Positions 16,919-64,000 of a stretch of 64,000 nt of DNA are shown piece by piece. The stretch is from assembly GCF_001856665.1 (NCBI RefSeq), contig NZ_CP017781.1, positions 3,116,001 to 3,180,000 on the forward strand, read 5' to 3'. The stretch's first letter is position 1. Every line of letters begins with the position of its first letter. The stretch is from Rhodobacter xanthinilyticus. GTDB lineage: Bacteria; Pseudomonadota; Alphaproteobacteria; Rhodobacterales; Rhodobacteraceae. The position numbers and the translations under genes were made by a program. Under the pieces are notes generated by a model. The model saw only the letters and a list, made by a program, of their open reading frames with translations. It searched no databases and was not told the DNA's origin.

Positions 16919-18277
16919 TCAGCCCCGGCCGGCCGCCTCGGCGGCGAAATGCGCCCGCGTCAGCTTGACGATCACCGGCGAGAGCAGGAGCAGCGAGATC
17001 AGGTTCGGGATCGCCATCAGCGCATTGAGCGTATCGGCCACCAGCCAGGCGAAATCGAGGCTCAGCGTCGCGCCGAAGAAGATCGACACCGTCCACAACA
17101 GCCGGAACGGCTTTTCGCTCACCGTGCCGAGCAGGAACTGCCAGCATTTCTCCGCGTAATAGGCCCAGCCGAGGATCGTCGTGAAGGCAAAGAGCGCCAG
17201 ACAGATCGTCAGGATGTATTTGCCCGCCCCCGGGATCGCCGCCTCGAAGGCCTGCGAGGAGAGCGGCGCGCCGGTCTCGCCGCCCGTCCAGACGCCGGTG
17301 ACCATGATCGCAAGCCCCGTCAGCGTGCAGATGATGATCGTGTCGATGAAGGTCCCCATCATGCCGATCACGCCCGAGAACACCGGGTCGGAGGTCGAGC
17401 CCGAGGCCTGCGCGATCCCGGCGGTGCCAAGCCCCGCCTCGTTCGAGAAGATGCCGCGCGCCACACCCTTTTGCATCGCGAGGATCATCGAGGCACCGAG
17501 GAAACCGCCCGCCGCCGCCGAGCCGGTGAAGGCGTCCGAAACGATGGTCACGATCGCCGCGGGGATATTGCCGGCAAAGATCGCGAGCACGAAGAGCACG
17601 CTGATCAGATAGACGATCGCCATGAACGGCACGATCTTCTCCGCCACCGCGCCGATTCGCTTGATCCCGCCAAGCACGACGAGGCCGGTGAGCACGGTCA
17701 GCACCGCGCCGGTGATCCAGGTCTGCACGCCGAAGGAATTCTCGATCGCGCTCGCGATGCCATTGGCCTGCACCATGTTGCCGATGCCAAAGCCCGCCAG
17801 CCCGCCGAAAAAGGCAAAAGCGGTGGCGAGCCAGCGCCAGTTCCGCCCCAGCCCGTTCTTGATCGCAAACATCGGGCCGCCGATATGCTCGCCCCTGTCA
17901 TCGACCTCGCGATACTTCACCGCGACCACCACCTCGGCGTATTTCGTGGCCATGCCGACGAAGGCGGTGACCCACATCCAGAACAGCGCGCCGGGCCCGC
18001 CGACCGCGATCGCGGTGGCGACGCCGGCGATATTGCCGGTGCCGATCGTCGCCGAGAGCGCGGTCATCAGCGCCGCATAGGGGGTGATCTCCCCCTCCGC
18101 CGCGGAGCCGGGCGTGCGGCTCCTCCAGATCATCTTGAAGCCATAAACGAGCTTGCGCAGCGGCATGAAGCCGAGGCGGAGCTGAAGATAAAGGCCGGTG
18201 CCGAGGATCAGCACGATCATCGGCACGCCCCAGACGATACCGTTGAGCCAATTGAAGAAAGTCAGTAGCAGTTCCAA
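16919..18277 (-). CDS. Sodium:alanine (AGCS) family symporter
   Basis: 452 residues from a TTG at 18277. GGAG lies seven bases upstream and no closer ATG exists. About ten to eleven membrane segments carry the AGCS signatures ALSATIGTGNIAGVATAI and GVARGIFSNEAGLGTA. The family imports alanine or glycine with sodium at the inner membrane. It converges on the crotonase gene with a 28-base gap. Confidence 0.9.
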   Translation of the reverse strand: MELLLTFFNWLNGIVWGVPMIVLILGTGLYLQLRLGFMPLRKLVYGFKMIWRSRTPGSAAEGEITPYAALMTALSATIGTGNIAGVATAIAVGGPGALFWMWVTAFVGMATKYAEVVVAVKYREVDDRGEHIGGPMFAIKNGLGRNWRWLATAFAFFGGLAGFGIGNMVQANGIASAIENSFGVQTWITGAVLTVLTGLVVLGGIKRIGAVAEKIVPFMAIVYLISVLFVLAIFAGNIPAAIVTIVSDAFTGSAAAGGFLGASMILAMQKGVARGIFSNEAGLGTAGIAQASGSTSDPVFSGVIGMMGTFIDTIIICTLTGLAIMVTGVWTGGETGAPLSSQAFEAAIPGAGKYILTICLALFAFTTILGWAYYAEKCWQFLLGTVSEKPFRLLWTVSIFFGATLSLDFAWLVADTLNALMAIPNLISLLLLSPVIVKLTRAHFAAEAAGRG

Positions 18278-57603: not shown

Positions 57604-57619
57604 GCCGCCCTTGGGCGGC
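57604..57619 (-). terminator. Hairpin next to the tRNA remnant
   Basis: GCCGCCC-AA-GGGCGGC on the minus strand followed by TTT. It stands just after the tRNA-end fragment in the minus direction, as a tRNA terminator would. Confidence 0.6.
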
Positions 57620-57627
57620 ATTTATAT

Positions 57628-57645
57628 TGGTTGCGGGGGCAGGAT
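57628..57645 (-). other. 3' end of an initiator tRNA, probable attachment-site remnant
   Basis: On the minus strand this reads ATCCTGCCCCCGCAACCA: the 3' side of the T stem, the acceptor 3' strand, discriminator A and CCA of tRNA-fMet as I know it from alphaproteobacteria. The remaining tRNA (anticodon, D arm, 5' acceptor) is absent upstream. Fragments of this kind are left by integrases that target tRNA 3' ends. Confidence 0.6.
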
Positions 57646-57678
57646 CGCATCATGACTTGCCGAGCGCGCAAGTAAAGA

Positions 57679-57689
57679 TGGTTGCGGGG
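57679..57689 (-). repeat. Second short copy of the tRNA 3' end
   Basis: TGGTTGCGGGG repeats the first 11 bases of the fragment at 57628, 51 bases further right; on the minus strand it reads CCCCGCAACCA. It may mark a second, nested integration event or part of the attachment site. Confidence 0.45.
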
Positions 57690-57740
57690 ACGCGCTTCAG
57701 TCTCAACTTGCTGACACGGTCAGCCGCGTAAGCCTTTTCG

Positions 57741-57834
57741 ACCTGAAGACCAGCGGTACAATCGGACCCGACCCATGTAAGCCAACGAATTCAACTTGCC
57801 CAGACTGGGCGAGCGGTTGGACCTGAAGTCCAGC
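57741..57834. repeat. Direct repeat pair ACCTGAAG(A/T)CCAGC
   Basis: ACCTGAAGACCAGC (57741-57754) and ACCTGAAGTCCAGC (57821-57834) match at 13 of 14 bases, 80 bases apart. CCTTTTC lies before the first and after the second copy. Their place beside the attachment-site remnant suggests recombinase or regulator binding. Confidence 0.5.
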
Positions 57835-57874
57835 CTTTTCTTATTCGCAAGAGCACGTTGGACACTTCGTGCAT

Positions 57875-60517
57875 TCATGGTTTGATCGAAGACCCGTCGA
57901 TCGACTGGGGCTCCGGGAAGAGTGCGATGATGCGTCTGAGCTTGGGACGCCTGAATGGAAGGTCTGAAACCAGGACGGTAGCTGCAAGTTTCTCGCACAA
58001 CTCATCCAGAGCCGCACACTCCGCAGGGCTGGGTGAATCTTCGGTATTCTCTATGGGCTCCAGCTCATTGAGTCGCATCAGGAGCTCCCAATCGCGGAGC
58101 GCCACGGCCATATCGCCGGTGCCGTCGATTCCAACAACGATCCTATGCACTGTAGCGCCAGTGCCAGTGATCTCGTCCTCGACTTGCGCTACAAGAAGTG
58201 GCGCTGAAATGCCGCGAGCACGCGACAGGAACACCGGCTGATCCATGCTGTGCGATATTGCGCGATCAAGCAAAGGATGGCCAACGCCAACAAGCCTGGT
58301 TAGGGAATGGTCCGAGCGCATAAAGCGATCAAAGGTGAGTGCGTCGTACCTGTCGCGTAGCTCGATGCTCCCTCGCCAAGCCTCAGGTGTAGCGACTGAA
58401 AGGCCCTCGTCACCTTTCGTAACACGACGGCCTGCCAGCGCCATGGCGTTGCGGAAGAAGGGTTCCAATGCAGGAAGGTCGAGTTTGGGAATTTCCGCCC
58501 CTGCCGACTGAAAATCGTATCGAGCGACATTCCCGAGCATTGCCCGCACTGTTTCAACGGCATCACGCCCGCCAAACTGCTGAGTACTCTGGTCAAACCA
58601 GCCTGCAAGGCCACTGCCGCTGCGCATAGAACCTTGTGAATAGATATCATCAAAGAACTGGCTCCCAGCCATCCCGATGACCAGCTGGGAGATGTCCTCT
58701 GGATCATCCATTGAAGCGGAAAGGGTTTCCTGAATCCGCGCAAGTTTCTCCTGCAGGAGAGACCATATCCTTGCTTCCACCGTTTCTGGGTTACGCAGCA
58801 GGAAGACACTTACCGCACGCTTCTGACCGTAGCGATTCAGCCGGCCAACGCGTTGATGCAATCGCATGGGGTTCCATGGCATGTCGATGTGAACAAGCAC
58901 GGCACAGCGTTCCTGCAGGTCGATGCCTTCGCCGCCGGCCTCGGTGGAAATCAGAAAACGGGTCCGACCTGCGTTGAAATCTTCAGCAGCAGAGTCGCGT
59001 GACAGCACGATTGCCGTTTCAGCGCCTGTGGCGGAGGTGACAACTAGACGCTCGTCACCATTGATGAAGCCAACGCAGCCTTTTCCGAAACGCGCCTCGA
59101 GCGCCTCATGAACAAGTGCTTGCGTCGCCTTGTACTCCGTAAACAAGAGCAGCGGCTCACCTTCAGGGAGATCACGTTCGATCAGGTCGAGTAGCGTTGC
59201 AATCTTTGTTTCGCGGTCAATCTCGGTCGAGAGAGCCAAAATCTCGTCGAGGCGGGCAATCTCATCCTGCATCAGCAAGACTGCGGTCTCGCTCGGACGG
59301 GCTTCTTCGGCCTCAGCGATTTCGTCGAAAGTCTCAGGTTCGCTGATGTCACGAGGCGTTGCATCCAGAAGGGAGTTTGCCAGCATAGCTCGCCTGCGCC
59401 GCAAAGCCCGAGTGATTGCAGCAATTGAGCTGGCCGCAAGCTTTTGCAGGGCGATCAGCAAGAGCATCCGGGCGGTCTGCTGGCGGCCGGAAAGACTTGC
59501 CGCATAGGCTCGTCCATCGATGATGAATTCGCTCATTGTATGATAGAATTCAGCCTCAGCTTCAGAAAACCCGTAGTCAACGGAGCGGGTTACCACCGGG
59601 CGAAACAGCTTGTTCCCGTCGAGATCAGTCACCAGTGCTTTGTTATTTCGGATCATTGCATTCGGCAGTGCCGAAAGCTGCTCCTTCATTTCTTTTTCCG
59701 GATCGAAAAGATCGGGCCGCACGAGCTGCATGAGTGCCAGAAAGCCGAAGTCCTTGCCCCTGTGTGGCGTGCCGGTGAACAAGACCAGTGAATCGATCCG
59801 ACCAGCATCCTGGAGCTCGCGCAGCAAACCGTAGGTCAGAGTAGCTGCCCGCTCCTGCGCCTGGAAGTGATGCGCTTCATCCACGATGACCAAGTCCCAC
59901 GGCTCGGCTTGCAGCAGGCGTTTGCGGGGCTTCTCCATGCGCAGAGTGTGGAAGGACGCAACTACCTGGTGCGCGGTTTCCCAGAAACTGATACGACCTC
60001 GGTCACTGTCCGCAGTAAACTCCTGCAGACGGATATCGAACATCGTTTTCATTCGGGCCCGCCACTGCGGAACCAGCCGTGCTGGCGCAAGAACAAGTAC
60101 ACGCCTCACTCTGCCGGATGCGATCAACGGCTCAAGGATCAGCCCGGCTTCGATCGTCTTGCCAAGCCCGACATCGTCTGCAACCAGCCAGCGAATTGGC
60201 CATGCGCGCGTTACTTGTCGGCACACCCAAAGCTGGTGCGGCAGCAATTGGACTCGGGAACGCGAAAACACTCCCCATTGATCGTTCACCGAAGCGATGG
60301 CCAATGCCTGCGCTCTGCAGAGAACAGCGCGACTGTCATCCATCTGGCCGCCCAGCAACGCAGTTTCGAGAGATCGCTGAAGGCTGATACTCTCGCGCTC
60401 GACTTGATGGATGGCTGTGCCGAACCGGGCCAGCACCGTAGGGCCGAGGTCGGCCACTACAAACCCCTCGCCATGTATGTGATGGCGAACCAGCTGATCC
60501 GCTTCAAGCTTCGTCAT
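57875..60517 (-). CDS. RapA/SNF2-type DEAD/DEAH helicase (candidate defence protein)
   Basis: 880 residues from the ATG at 60517. A short N-terminal beta-rich module (residues about 8-45, HHIHGEGFVVADLGPTVLAR) resembles the Tudor-like part of RapA. It is followed by motif I DDVGLGKTIEAG (Lys120), motif II DEAH (213-216), motif III LFTGTPHRG and the C-terminal RecA motifs STEAGGEGIDLQ and QRVGRLNRYGQ. A C-terminal about 250-residue region has no recognisable motif. Such ATPases move along double-stranded DNA and remodel bound proteins. The start overlaps the GHKL gene by 14 bases, so both are made together. Lower G+C and mixed codon use point to transfer. Confidence 0.85.
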   Translation of the reverse strand: MTKLEADQLVRHHIHGEGFVVADLGPTVLARFGTAIHQVERESISLQRSLETALLGGQMDDSRAVLCRAQALAIASVNDQWGVFSRSRVQLLPHQLWVCRQVTRAWPIRWLVADDVGLGKTIEAGLILEPLIASGRVRRVLVLAPARLVPQWRARMKTMFDIRLQEFTADSDRGRISFWETAHQVVASFHTLRMEKPRKRLLQAEPWDLVIVDEAHHFQAQERAATLTYGLLRELQDAGRIDSLVLFTGTPHRGKDFGFLALMQLVRPDLFDPEKEMKEQLSALPNAMIRNNKALVTDLDGNKLFRPVVTRSVDYGFSEAEAEFYHTMSEFIIDGRAYAASLSGRQQTARMLLLIALQKLAASSIAAITRALRRRRAMLANSLLDATPRDISEPETFDEIAEAEEARPSETAVLLMQDEIARLDEILALSTEIDRETKIATLLDLIERDLPEGEPLLLFTEYKATQALVHEALEARFGKGCVGFINGDERLVVTSATGAETAIVLSRDSAAEDFNAGRTRFLISTEAGGEGIDLQERCAVLVHIDMPWNPMRLHQRVGRLNRYGQKRAVSVFLLRNPETVEARIWSLLQEKLARIQETLSASMDDPEDISQLVIGMAGSQFFDDIYSQGSMRSGSGLAGWFDQSTQQFGGRDAVETVRAMLGNVARYDFQSAGAEIPKLDLPALEPFFRNAMALAGRRVTKGDEGLSVATPEAWRGSIELRDRYDALTFDRFMRSDHSLTRLVGVGHPLLDRAISHSMDQPVFLSRARGISAPLLVAQVEDEITGTGATVHRIVVGIDGTGDMAVALRDWELLMRLNELEPIENTEDSPSPAECAALDELCEKLAATVLVSDLPFRRPKLRRIIALFPEPQSIDGSSIKP

Positions 60518-63500
60518 AGTTCGTCACCATGAGGTCGTCGTCCAGAACGCGGTAATCACTTCCAAGGAAACCATGTCTTGCAGAGATCATTAGCAATTGT
60601 TGCTCATGCTGCCCATCGCTGATGATCTGCATTGGCAAATCCAGATCGCCAAAGAAACCTGCGTCGTCAGGGCCGAGGTGATCTTTCACAATGCCGTAGA
60701 TCTCACGGGTCTGGTCCATGTCCCCGGCCTCCCCCAAGTCAAGGTCAAGCTCGCTGCGACACAATCTGCGGACGCGATCAGAGGCTGCCCAGCCATAGGG
60801 ATAGAGGCAATTTCGTTCATCCTCACCCCACAGACCGGCGCGCAGGCCTTCCCGGATCAACCAGTTGGCCCCAAGTCCCAGACTCTGCGTCAGCGGTGCG
60901 CCTTCAAGTCCCCGCCTTTGCCAGATCGGCGATGCGCTCAGCTTCCACACTTCTTTCAGCGAGATCACCTTCTGAGTTTGTAAAACCTTCGGCAGGTTAC
61001 GGTAGGCATCGATGTAATCAGGAAGCCAGCGTGCCAGAACGTAAAGGTCAGCCAAAGCCCGACGCCACTGAGGATAATCAATTCGCCAGGCGTCGGCGCG
61101 AGCGAAGTCTTCAAGCCTGAGCAGCCATGGGGTGGGGTCGTTAGGCAGTTTCGCCTCGGCCATTTCCTGCCACCAGCCCGTTTGCCTCGCTTTAGTGACA
61201 AAGTTGCGATGCGCGCCCTCCGGAGCCCGGCCCAGAGTGCGAAAGATCGCCAGCGCAAAGAACGTGAACCAGTCCTCACGCCGGGATGCAACATCCTGCG
61301 CTGCCAGGTTACGCGGGTGGAATCCATGCGGATAGACCCTTGCCTCGTAGGTCATCCGTTCCTTCTGGTGGTTCTCTTGCCACCAGTCGTGAAGCCGTCG
61401 AAGAAATGCTTGAGAGTCGGCTGGTTTATGTTCAGCCTCGGGCTGAACCCCACCGGACCAAAGAAGGCGCTGTTCAATGGGGTAGAGGATTCCGAGCAAT
61501 TCTGGCAGATCTTCGGGAGCAACTGCTTTCGCAAACGGGCATGCGCGGAATTCGTCCGATGTATTTGGGAGCCAACCGGGGCGATCTTCCGCCAACAATT
61601 GCCCCAGTTCTCTGCCATGCCTGCCCTTGAGGATGTAAGATAAGACAGCGCACTGCAGGGCTTCGTCACTGGCAAGCTTGGCCCACTGCGCGAGCGCGAT
61701 TGGTCCGCGCTGAAAGCCGCTTTGGCGCATTGCAAGGCGGTAGAAAGTCAATGCAGCGCCATCATAATCACGATCTGCAAGGTGCTTAGAAGGTGCAAAC
61801 CCCAGAACGCGCCGTTCCTCCTCATCCCCGTCCGTTGCATTTTGCGGCGGCAAGGCTGCCGTGTGCCACCTCCCGTCACTCATCTTGAACAACAAGGACG
61901 ATAGAAACTCCAAGAGTTCGCCTTCTTCCTGCTTGTCCAAAGACTTTACCAGATCGTCATCGACAAGCCTCCCAAGACGTTGCGCGAGATCAGGTGCGGC
62001 GCGTTTTTCCGCGCCGATCTCGTGGCGTAACAGATCGACCAGCTTGAATGATCTCGGACGATCAAAGCCCAAGCTTTCAATCCGGTCTGCAACCTCCTCT
62101 GCTATGGCAGCGCCCCCGATCACACTCATTGCCTGCCAGTCATTCAGCGAGGCGAGCAGTTTACGATCGGCTATCGCCCCCATCATTACGAAGCGGGCTT
62201 CATGAGCCCTCAGAAAAGGGCTAAAGGGCATGGGCAGACCCGTGGCCAGTGCAGAACGCTCCGCTATCAGCCTGCCAAAACCGCGATCCTTCCCATGCAG
62301 TTGGCTAGCAAGCGGGTCGCCTTGATCTTTGGCGAACAGTCGGTCGAGCGATCGCAAGAAACCTTGTGGGCCACGATCCTCTGACCTGTCCGACAACCCG
62401 GCGCGTTCGGCCAAAACAGCCCAATGCTGCGTAACCAGATCATGAAGTTCCACAAGCCGCAGGCCGAGCGTGCGTCCAAACTCGGCAAACATCCCTTGGC
62501 GCTCGGTTTCGCTACCAGCCAGGCGACCGCGGCCCGGATCAACCCGAAAGCGTCTCCCGTTCATCAGCCAGCCAACGGAAAGCACCTCTGCAAGCGGCGC
62601 CAGCAGCCACAGACGCGGCAAGCCCTCGGGCGCGGCTACTGGTCCCTGCATGTCCAGCGGCAGGAACAGAGTTGTCTCTTCGCCAAGGTCGAGAGCGAGC
62701 GCATGACCGAAACCGCGCCCACCGAACGATACCAGCCTGATCCGCTGCGCATCCAGTTCGCAGAACTCGGCAGACCAGTCTCCGGAGGCGTCGATCTCGA
62801 TATGTCGGACCGATCGGCTCATCGCTGGCAACCACGGCGCCGCCTGCGTGAAATCAGCTAGCGCCCGTCCTACATCCTCGTGACCCTCAGGATCTATCTC
62901 AACTTCGATCACCGTTGCAGGCCGCCCATGAGCGCTTCGCCTCACCGACAGCTCACGGCCCTCAGCCCATGCTTCCGGCAGCATACCGCCCTTGATCCGG
63001 CAGGACACGAAATGGCTGGCGATCGACACCCGCCTCGAAAGAAGGTGCACACTCTTGAACCCCAGGCCGAAACGGCCAGTCACGTCCTCGCGCTTTTCCG
63101 AAAGGTTCATCAACAGCATGTTGAAGAGATCATTGCGCCAGCCCTTCTTTATCCCTTCGTCGACATTCGGGCCTGGGTGGTTGATCAACCGCCCCCAATG
63201 GCTGACGGCCAACCGGTCATGGCCATATTCCAGACGAAACCGCCCCTCCGTAGGGACTGGATGCTGATGGGTCGCATCATCAGCGTTCTGGAATAGCTCG
63301 AAGAGCACACGGGAAGGATCGTAACCATAATCCTTGATCCGCTGTCGTATCGCGATGAGGAGTTCGTCAGCCTTCTTCGGGGATGCAACCTTTTCCCATA
63401 GCTCACGCTTCGCGGCCGGTCGGGCTTCTTCTTGCCTCTTTCCGGCAGGATGGGAATCGATCCTGTCCCTGTAGGCTTTTCGAGCCTCCCAGAGCCCGGA

Positions 63501-64000
63501 CCCATTCTGAGGTCTCAATTCGTCCAGGACCTGCGGCAAGCGATCTTCAAGTTCGGCCCTCGCGGCATCGACTGTGGCCTGATCCAGCCGATCACATTCG
63601 TCGGCAAGACGGTCAAGCGCTTCCAGGCAAGCTGCCTGCTCTTTGCGGTAGCCGATGAAGACTTCTGCCAAGGTCAGGCACAGCGTCTTCACATCAGCCG
63701 ATGTAACCGCCGTCCCGGAGAAAGCCGCGATCTGGAGCGTTCGCGCACCGATAAGCTGCTTATTATGCCAAAAGTTCTTCCAGCCGACATGGACGTTCCC
63801 AAGGACGCCCAGAGGTTTGACCTCGCCCGTCGGGAGGTTCGCAATAGTTCCGGTAAGTGTCTCGGTCGAGATTTCAGAAGGTGGCACCGTAAGTGATTGG
63901 AATTGCACGAACCGCGAAAGACGCTTGTCTTCAAATTTCTGTCCAAACGTCTCTGGTTGGAAGTGCAGAGCGACCTCACTGTCAATTCTGCTCCAGATGC
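60504..64000 (-). CDS. Very large sacsin/Hsp90-like (GHKL) ATPase protein, 5' end outside window
   Basis: At least 1164 residues; the frame stays open to the right edge (visible start of protein IWSRIDSEVALHFQ), so the GTG at 63908 is not assumed to be the start. The Bergerat N-box is VLFELFQNADDA (63299-63273 for its ELFQNADDA core), the glycine box is TGRFGLGFKSVHLLS (around 63080-63040), and SHWGRLI stands where sacsin-type ATPases have HNGRPF. The N-terminal about 180 residues and the C-terminal about 750 residues match nothing I recognise. Proteins with this ATPase occur in bacterial defence islands. It is translationally coupled to the helicase downstream. Confidence 0.75.
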   Translation of the reverse strand, partial: IWSRIDSEVALHFQPETFGQKFEDKRLSRFVQFQSLTVPPSEISTETLTGTIANLPTGEVKPLGVLGNVHVGWKNFWHNKQLIGARTLQIAAFSGTAVTSADVKTLCLTLAEVFIGYRKEQAACLEALDRLADECDRLDQATVDAARAELEDRLPQVLDELRPQNGSGLWEARKAYRDRIDSHPAGKRQEEARPAAKRELWEKVASPKKADELLIAIRQRIKDYGYDPSRVLFELFQNADDATHQHPVPTEGRFRLEYGHDRLAVSHWGRLINHPGPNVDEGIKKGWRNDLFNMLLMNLSEKREDVTGRFGLGFKSVHLLSRRVSIASHFVSCRIKGGMLPEAWAEGRELSVRRSAHGRPATVIEVEIDPEGHEDVGRALADFTQAAPWLPAMSRSVRHIEIDASGDWSAEFCELDAQRIRLVSFGGRGFGHALALDLGEETTLFLPLDMQGPVAAPEGLPRLWLLAPLAEVLSVGWLMNGRRFRVDPGRGRLAGSETERQGMFAEFGRTLGLRLVELHDLVTQHWAVLAERAGLSDRSEDRGPQGFLRSLDRLFAKDQGDPLASQLHGKDRGFGRLIAERSALATGLPMPFSPFLRAHEARFVMMGAIADRKLLASLNDWQAMSVIGGAAIAEEVADRIESLGFDRPRSFKLVDLLRHEIGAEKRAAPDLAQRLGRLVDDDLVKSLDKQEEGELLEFLSSLLFKMSDGRWHTAALPPQNATDGDEEERRVLGFAPSKHLADRDYDGAALTFYRLAMRQSGFQRGPIALAQWAKLASDEALQCAVLSYILKGRHGRELGQLLAEDRPGWLPNTSDEFRACPFAKAVAPEDLPELLGILYPIEQRLLWSGGVQPEAEHKPADSQAFLRRLHDWWQENHQKERMTYEARVYPHGFHPRNLAAQDVASRREDWFTFFALAIFRTLGRAPEGAHRNFVTKARQTGWWQEMAEAKLPNDPTPWLLRLEDFARADAWRIDYPQWRRALADLYVLARWLPDYIDAYRNLPKVLQTQKVISLKEVWKLSASPIWQRRGLEGAPLTQSLGLGANWLIREGLRAGLWGEDERNCLYPYGWAASDRVRRLCRSELDLDLGEAGDMDQTREIYGIVKDHLGPDDAGFFGDLDLPMQIISDGQHEQQLLMISARHGFLGSDYRVLDDDLMVTNYDEA

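Follow-up and report, generated by a model that had tools for sequence, protein, structure and literature searches.

A giant sacsin-like ATPase and a RapA-like SNF2 helicase form a conserved gene pair on mobile DNA: a candidate two-component defence cassette

We analyzed a 64,000-nucleotide stretch of the chromosome of Rhodobacter xanthinilyticus (contig NZ_CP017781.1, positions 3,116,001 to 3,180,000), which we call the window. At its right end are two minus-strand genes that overlap by 14 bp: a gene for a giant sacsin-like ATPase (60504..64000; its frame, 60504-63998, is open at the window's edge), followed by a gene for a RapA-like SNF2 helicase of 880 amino acids (57875..60517). The overlap (60504..60517, minus strand), which we read directly from the letters, contains the stop of the ATPase and the start of the helicase. 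With the neighbouring chromosome added, the ATPase gene starts with an ATG at window position 67910 (G000:C1:3183910 in our numbering) and encodes 2,468 amino acids, of which the window holds only the C-terminal 1,164. A preliminary description of this DNA had proposed just such a pair (a 14-base overlap, a sacsin-type ATPase of at least 1164 residues and an 880-residue SNF2-type helicase), and the frames and domains agree with it. The pair comprises ~3,350 residues over two proteins, which annotation labels only as "hypothetical protein" and "helicase."

The helicase gene is recognizable from its frame, domains, motifs and fold. Pfam finds SNF2-rel_dom (E = 2.2e-14) and Helicase_C (E = 1.8e-13), and motifs I, II, III, V, and VI are all invariant or nearly so across 45 aligned homologues. 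Motif I (Walker A) is DDVGLGKT (residues 114-121; 60155..60178, minus strand), in which L118 is nearly invariant and the other positions are invariant. Motif II, DEAHH (residues 213-217; 59867..59881, minus strand), and motif VI, QRVGR (residues 555-559; 58841..58855, minus strand), are invariant in all 45 rows. The structural model (pLDDT 85.5, pTM 0.81; from an alignment of 41) has RapA as its top match, as the preliminary description had suggested: the Foldseek E value is 4.1e-29, and the comparison to 8spg gives Z = 25.1 and rmsd 11.1 over 687 aligned residues, which is nearly the whole chain.

The helicase falls well below the cut-offs of the corresponding NCBIfam equivalogs, with 180.1 bits against a cut-off of 576 for RapA and, for DrmD of the DISARM system, 250.3 against 610 (NF038317) and 152.6 against 950 (NF038318). 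On the other hand, residues 9-825 match the PADLOC profile PDLC02634, which is named DrmD, at 773.6 bits. Two distant homologues of the helicase score 870.8 and 767.2 bits. Judging from these sequence scores, PDLC02634 is probably a profile of the present helicase subfamily itself.

The full-length ATPase matches Pfam's SACS (E = 6.4e-25; 88.8 bits against a cut-off of 32.8). It also has the ATP-binding domain of the sacsin N-terminus as defined by NCBIfam (P_loop_sacsin, NF047352; 119.7 bits against a cut-off of 50), in two stretches. The chain has two tandem GHKL/Hsp90-like modules, at residues ~19-118 and 1506-1640, which are homologous to each other (hhalign 97.7%, E = 1.7e-12, 104 columns). 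In a full-length alignment of 43 rows, of which 42 are distinct because L015 and L021 represent one locus, every row retains both ATP sites. For the first site, the conserved residues are E32, N36, D39, G98, G101, G103, and K105. In the second ATP-binding core (62991..63395, minus strand), they are the N-box residues E1538, N1542, and D1545, then G1573, R1574, and N1577, and then G1612, G1615, G1617, and K1619 of the G2 box. We take the roles of these residues from what is known of the GHKL family.

An AlphaFold model of the C-terminal half of the ATPase (pLDDT 87.4, pTM 0.60; from an alignment of 40 sequences), together with its structural matches, extends the second module to an Hsp90-like N-terminal plus middle domain at residues ~1448-1955 (62046..63569, minus strand). 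The model resembles the N and middle domains of Hsp90 (TRAP1: Z = 14.3, rmsd 6.3, 336 aligned) as well as SR1, a domain of human sacsin (Z = 13.7, rmsd 3.3, 162 aligned); the absence of a family from these match lists does not exclude that family. On the full ATPase chain, Pfam at E 0.001 gives just SACS and HATPase_c_3, with no match to DnaJ or HEPN. By eye, there is no nuclease motif of the sacsin-HEPN type (Rx4-6H) among the near-invariant residues of the C-terminus.

To see how often the two genes occur together, we scanned genome contigs with a six-row alignment of the ATPase and took the best 80 of 247 relatives, which gave 77 loci. Altogether, we examined 86 loci: 67 contain a family-level ATPase (>140 bits) and 19 contain only other sacsin-like proteins. 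Six of the 67 run off the contig and another five have less than 600 bp of room, leaving 56 usable loci. A helicase of the same subfamily (at least 616 bits) lies on the same strand within 1 kb downstream in 52 of these 56. The two frames overlap in 39 of the 52 (by exactly 4 bp in 20), are separated by 0-25 bp in 10, and are 677-819 bp apart in 3. Helicase starts were taken from the longest frames, so the overlaps are inflated in some loci.

The two proteins also diverge together. Across 42 pairs, the distances between ATPases and between helicases agree (Mantel r = 0.94; 0 of 999 permutations), and the ATPase is the more divergent partner in 861 of 861 comparisons (median identity 0.23 versus 0.46). 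From these sequences, we infer that the faster-diverging ATPase may be the sensor, as in an arms race. The helicase tree (42 rows) mixes orders and phyla: an Acidobacteriota row (Edaphobacter) groups with Verrucomicrobiota, a Neomarinimicrobiota row groups with gammaproteobacteria, and Aureimonas groups with Novosphingobium. Such mixing fits horizontal transfer but does not prove it.

In three Sphingomonadales (L036, L044, and L056), the pair occupies one chromosomal site with a common right flank and different left flanks. The left flank has a ResIII/endonuclease gene in L036; SNF2, N6/N4 methylase, and ResIII genes in L044; and DEAD-MZB and UvrD genes in L056. Between L044 (Qipengyuania pacifica) and L056 (Sphingosinithalassobacter portus), DNA identity is 44-77% across the final 4.2 kb of the ATPase gene; from position 17500 of L044 on, about 350 bp past the end of the ATPase, it is 95-99%. 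This step implies that the ATPase side was exchanged while the motor and the right flank were retained. We had considered a common exchange breakpoint near ATPase residue ~2,150 in two lineages, and we dropped this idea after a sliding comparison. L044 and L056 show a sharp step shortly inside the helicase gene; L073 and L078 show a gradient instead, with 44-71% identity in the part of the ATPase compared, ~69-76% in its last 260 codons, and 77-88% in the helicase.

At the R. xanthinilyticus locus, the pair sits in mobile DNA. G+C content per kb is 56.5-61.2% over 58-64 kb of the window versus 62.7-77.9% over 1-57 kb, so the drop that had been noticed by eye is real, and its estimate of mid-50s per cent was slightly low. 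The reported remnant of a tRNA end at the left edge of the island was also confirmed: 18 bp (57628..57645, minus strand) are identical in sequence to the 3' end of the intact tRNA-Met (CAT) gene at G000:C1:2613103, the sole other exact copy in the genome. Since the left edge bears this putative attachment-site remnant, the element probably entered the end of a tRNA gene. Just past the tRNA end, an inverted repeat (57604..57619) is possibly an old tRNA terminator. We assigned its minus-strand role by eye; it was scored as a terminator-like site on the plus strand only, and the region has 11 such sites versus 9.9 expected by chance. A second copy of the left flank (L126, G000:C1:2588328-2588632) is 94% identical. 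It is separated by 25 kb from the intact tRNA-Met gene, and the end of an IS21 element lies directly behind its tRNA-end fragment. This suggests a past duplication or rearrangement.

To the right of the ATPase gene are two inverted copies of IS21 (window positions 68021-73796; L003 14021-19796), which are 100% complementary over 2,533 nt and 710 nt apart. The nearer copy is 110 bp upstream of the ATPase start. The 710 nt between them encode a restriction-endonuclease domain (RE_endonuc, PF19778; E = 1e-6, 29.0 bits against a cut-off of 23.4) in the same direction as the pair. We read this remnant as type III-like because L036 has the same domain in a ResIII protein. It is the sole nuclease partner that we found at this locus, and a search of the genome for a TM0106-like partner elsewhere, which had no positive control, found none. 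Further right (L004 1782-17854) are a DDE transposase, a phage-type integrase, a GNAT acetyltransferase, a pterin-binding (DHPS-type) gene, a LysR regulator, and Trb/VirB conjugation genes; the LysR gene is the closest of these to the IS21 copy. From its gene content, the region resembles a composite island of conjugative type that carries resistance-type genes; we did not locate its right end. PF09369, which we take to be the former DUF1998, has no match in this genome; it was found in 8 of 14 control genomes.

The pair is rare and patchy. The ATPase is present in 4 of 101 genomes of relatives and in 2 of 385 genomes (R. xanthinilyticus included in both), and a tblastn search of 72,556 plasmid records found it in 7, in one case over only 5%. 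In the reverse direction, the helicase alignment matched 3 of 398 Pseudomonadota genomes at 1e-120. Only R. xanthinilyticus came near the full score (1270.6 bits); the other two (L135 and L136) scored 426 and 412 bits and have no family ATPase in the short flanks examined. Phyla in the tree, as given by record titles, are Pseudomonadota, Chloroflexota, Verrucomicrobiota, Spirochaetota, Lentisphaerota, Acidobacteriota, Thermodesulfobacteriota, Fidelibacterota, and Tharpellota; plasmid records add Deinococcota and Cyanobacteriota (the latter also found in genome contigs), for a total of ~11. The ATPase scan of viral contigs found nothing, which is a weak test as its patterns came from one sequence, and the helicase had no match in phage records at E 1e-20.

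Several loci differ from the usual layout. A plasmid of Deinococcus wulumuqiensis (pDrdI; L137 3813-17413) carries a second, separate pair, which is followed by genes for a NucS-domain endonuclease and a type I restriction-modification (RM) system; where the helicase starts, the annotation has an additional small frame. In L052, the gap between ATPase and helicase (17458-18277) contains two small frames that, by eye, resemble a Phd-type antitoxin and a VapC-type PIN toxin; the gaps in L054 and L065 are similar. In L010, L013, L048, L055, and L057 (four cyanobacterial and one from Sphingomonas), the ATPase is split over at least two frames, each of which matches, and this could be a split into subunits or decay. 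A different pairing accounts for 8 of the 19 loci without the main ATPase family (L083, L091-L096, and L098): an SNF2 protein of 1,009-1,204 amino acids is encoded directly upstream (-29 to +36 bp) of a sacsin-like protein, which has 1,009-1,067 amino acids in six loci and 615 and 151 in the other two. In L091, the one locus of this kind that we scanned, the sacsin-like protein is TmtA-like and has a weak match to a type IV restriction endonuclease.

The genes around the pair are rich in defence functions, including Tiamat, DISARM, Zorya, type I and III RM systems, and RecB-like nucleases. The commonest cluster of neighbours is TM0106/RecB-like (9 of the 67 loci; identified in L017 by NCBIfam and in L011 by annotation), and in five loci its gene and the start of the ATPase share 4 bp. 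Other clusters are a small gene (8 loci, two of which, L010 and L011, are annotated as HEPN), a WYL-type gene (6 loci; annotated in L010), and an McrB-like gene beside the pair (3 loci, each then with a gene that we did not identify; in L017 it scores 116.9 bits, under the cut-off of 637). A DrmA-related cluster has DrmB adjoining in 3 loci (annotated in L013; by PADLOC, DrmB in L031 and both DrmA and DrmB in L057).

We compared 195 of 200 chosen neighbour genes to PADLOC at E 1e-10, omitting two very long ones (L014 and L056), another two from L044, and one from L075. Counting models, 94 neighbour proteins gave 178 and 101 neighbour proteins gave 436; as a control, we took 13 arbitrary places in genomes related to that of R. 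xanthinilyticus, and their 91 proteins gave 9, each in one protein. Among the matches listed are MkoA/MkoC, PDC-S68, WYL, TmtA, ZorA, type I and III enzymes, DrmMI, type IIG, PglX, GajB, and SoFic.

Two of these neighbourhoods lack the usual helicase. In Myxacorys californica (L057 1145-27200), the giant ATPase, in two frames, lies within a DISARM operon, with DrmD and DrmMI upstream and a NERD/UvrD-like gene, DrmA, and DrmB downstream. This ATPase may plug into DISARM. On plasmid pOT1-5 of Haematobacter massiliensis (L011 7526-18285), a gene similar to Tiamat's TmtA (1.3e-238) is directly upstream of a shortened ATPase.

From gene context, we infer that the pair functions in defence and has an anti-phage effect. 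We think it probable, with moderate confidence, that the pair is a two-component defence cassette on mobile DNA and a core system of its own. We observed directly its architecture, the conservation of its motifs, the linkage and co-divergence of its two genes, its mobile setting, and the abundance of defence genes nearby. The preliminary description had named three outcomes that would speak against such a pair, and none occurred: the homologues do lie side by side, they do not belong to the core genome, and we found no described system with the exact pair.

The giant ATPase is a single-chain tandem of two Hsp90-like modules (GHKL plus middle domain) with long, fast-changing regions between them. 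Hsp90, MutL, and MORC act as dimers of GHKL-type modules. If the pair is a defence system, the ATPase would close as an ATP-driven clamp on sensing infection or foreign nucleic acid, and the closed clamp would recruit or release the RapA-like SNF2 motor, whose motifs are intact and which has no recognized nuclease domain. The motor would then travel on the invading DNA and block or strip the machinery that replicates or transcribes it. Nucleases (TM0106/RecB-like, McrB-linked, or type III-like) might join as optional partners in some lineages and add degradation. A bolder version, which we regard as a long shot, is silencing without a nuclease: a double-Hsp90/MORC-like clamp would trap invading DNA while the SNF2 motor compacts it or strips polymerases, as a prokaryotic counterpart of eukaryotic silencing by MORC/SMCHD1 and SNF2 remodellers, with the exchangeable ATPase setting recognition.

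Several points weigh against a self-standing defence cassette. Pfam recognizes no nuclease or methylase domain in either full-length protein, and most loci have no third gene in common. There is no adjacent helicase in 4 of the 56 usable loci (L011, L057, L059, and L075): L011 has a shortened ATPase and L075 has fragments, with a helicase fragment 1.1 kb away, but L057 and L059 are not explained in this way. Linkage was measured on the best matches only (the best 80 of 247). Because PADLOC matches were counted by model, and related models overlap, the numbers give a contrast and not a protein-level enrichment factor, and the control was confined to relatives of one genome. Defence islands collect other cargo too. 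Finally, the greater divergence of the ATPase could reflect relaxed constraint rather than an arms race.

These points leave room for other explanations. The pair could be an accessory of neighbouring restriction or DISARM systems that lends ATP-driven DNA looping or translocation to an adjoining nuclease, as was proposed for MORC/paraMORC in restriction operons (PMC2292703). The 4-bp overlaps of the TM0106/RecB-like gene with the ATPase start would fit this, as would the adjoining McrB-like genes in three loci, the restriction-endonuclease remnant upstream of the R. xanthinilyticus pair, and the DISARM genes beside L013, L031, and L057, the last with its ATPase between DrmMI and DrmA, DISARM's own DrmD upstream, and no partner helicase. 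However, no single partner is present in most of the 67 loci (the commonest is in 9), and the pair persists where the partners differ, so we consider an accessory role unlikely.

We rate it as rather improbable that the pair works for the mobile element or in general physiology, such as RapA-like recycling of transcription, sacsin-like chaperone work, DNA repair, or plasmid upkeep. The closest folds are indeed RapA and Hsp90/sacsin, several copies are on plasmids, and the R. xanthinilyticus copy is on an island with conjugation genes. But the ATPase is absent from 97 of the 101 genomes searched among relatives, and differing defence-type genes adjoin the pair at one conserved site in the three Sphingomonadales. 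That the genes are decaying passengers of the island, kept by hitch-hiking, seems very improbable: an IS21 copy does lie just upstream of the ATPase, and L011, L043, and L075 are shortened or broken, yet the frames and the ATPase motifs are intact here and in the other full-length homologues (42 distinct in all). If the two-component defence cassette that we favour is real, it would be an overlooked defence core across ~11 phyla, it would connect immunity in bacteria with clamp ATPases (sacsin/Hsp90 and MORC) as well as with RapA/SNF2 remodellers, and, with a fast-diverging partner exchanged against a conserved motor, its recognition could be mapped by swaps.

Among known systems, DISARM (described in PMC9142583) shares an SNF2-family protein with a similar core: PADLOC's DrmD-named profile fits the helicase, and the pair sometimes adjoins DISARM genes. 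We rejected the idea that the pair is DISARM despite that name, as the helicase misses the NCBIfam cut-offs for DrmD and neither PF09369 nor DrmA (PDLC02567) nor DrmB (PDLC02583) has a match in the whole genome (one profile each; DrmA and DrmB were each found in 2 of 14 control genomes). Another difference is that the partner of the helicase is a giant ATPase. Tiamat's TmtA is a single-gene GHKL protein. The first GHKL domain of the giant ATPase matches TmtA models (82.3 bits; residues 10-118 of 2468 against positions 59-158 of a profile of 1486), so the best match covers only ~110 residues and not a full-length TmtA; unlike TmtA, the ATPase has two modules and nearly always a helicase partner. 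MzaA was not among the PADLOC matches listed for the pair (for the helicase, the best 25 of 46), and Z1 and AIPR partners were not searched for.

RapA is the best structural match of the helicase, which differs in missing the equivalog cut-off and in being mobile and paired. PMC12839542 covers the RapA-like architecture of helicases from BREX and related systems and contains no instance of Hsp90, GHKL, or sacsin. Eukaryotic sacsin also has tandem Hsp90-like modules in a giant chain, but it has three (PMC3710099, which also covers the HEPN domain of animal sacsin) where the bacterial ATPase has two and, by Pfam, no DnaJ or HEPN. Druantia III (DruH-DruE) offers an analogy only: it is described as two genes, likely a sensor and a helicase, with DruE described as a helicase-nuclease. 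The passages that we consulted in PMC12458937, PMC8195603, and PMC11077055 do not describe the pair. We found no name or description for the exact pair in titles, opening lines of abstracts, and selected passages of the open-licence literature (subscription papers and supplements being outside this scope) or in profile libraries.

The closest precedent is from Iyer et al. 2008 (PMC2292703), who predict that GHKL proteins (MORC/paraMORC) work together with superfamily II helicases, including an SWI2/SNF2 group, in restriction systems, and who describe a MORC-specific sequence motif; the word "sacsin" does not occur there. As in those operons, a GHKL plus S5-type module is encoded next to a superfamily II helicase in a defence context. 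By contrast, the ATPase here is one chain of ~2,400-2,600 residues with two modules, and no methylase or nuclease gene is shared by most loci: the R. xanthinilyticus locus has just the RE_endonuc remnant, and other loci have variable nuclease-type genes. The preliminary description had proposed an unnamed defence pair. A conserved cassette (52 of 56 loci), mobile DNA, defence-rich neighbours, and the lack of a name for the exact pair all support this; its novelty is qualified by PADLOC's DrmD profile and by the 2008 prediction. Because operons of GHKL and SNF2 proteins were already predicted then, this kind of system is known, and the giant double-module version is a new variant of it, not a new category.

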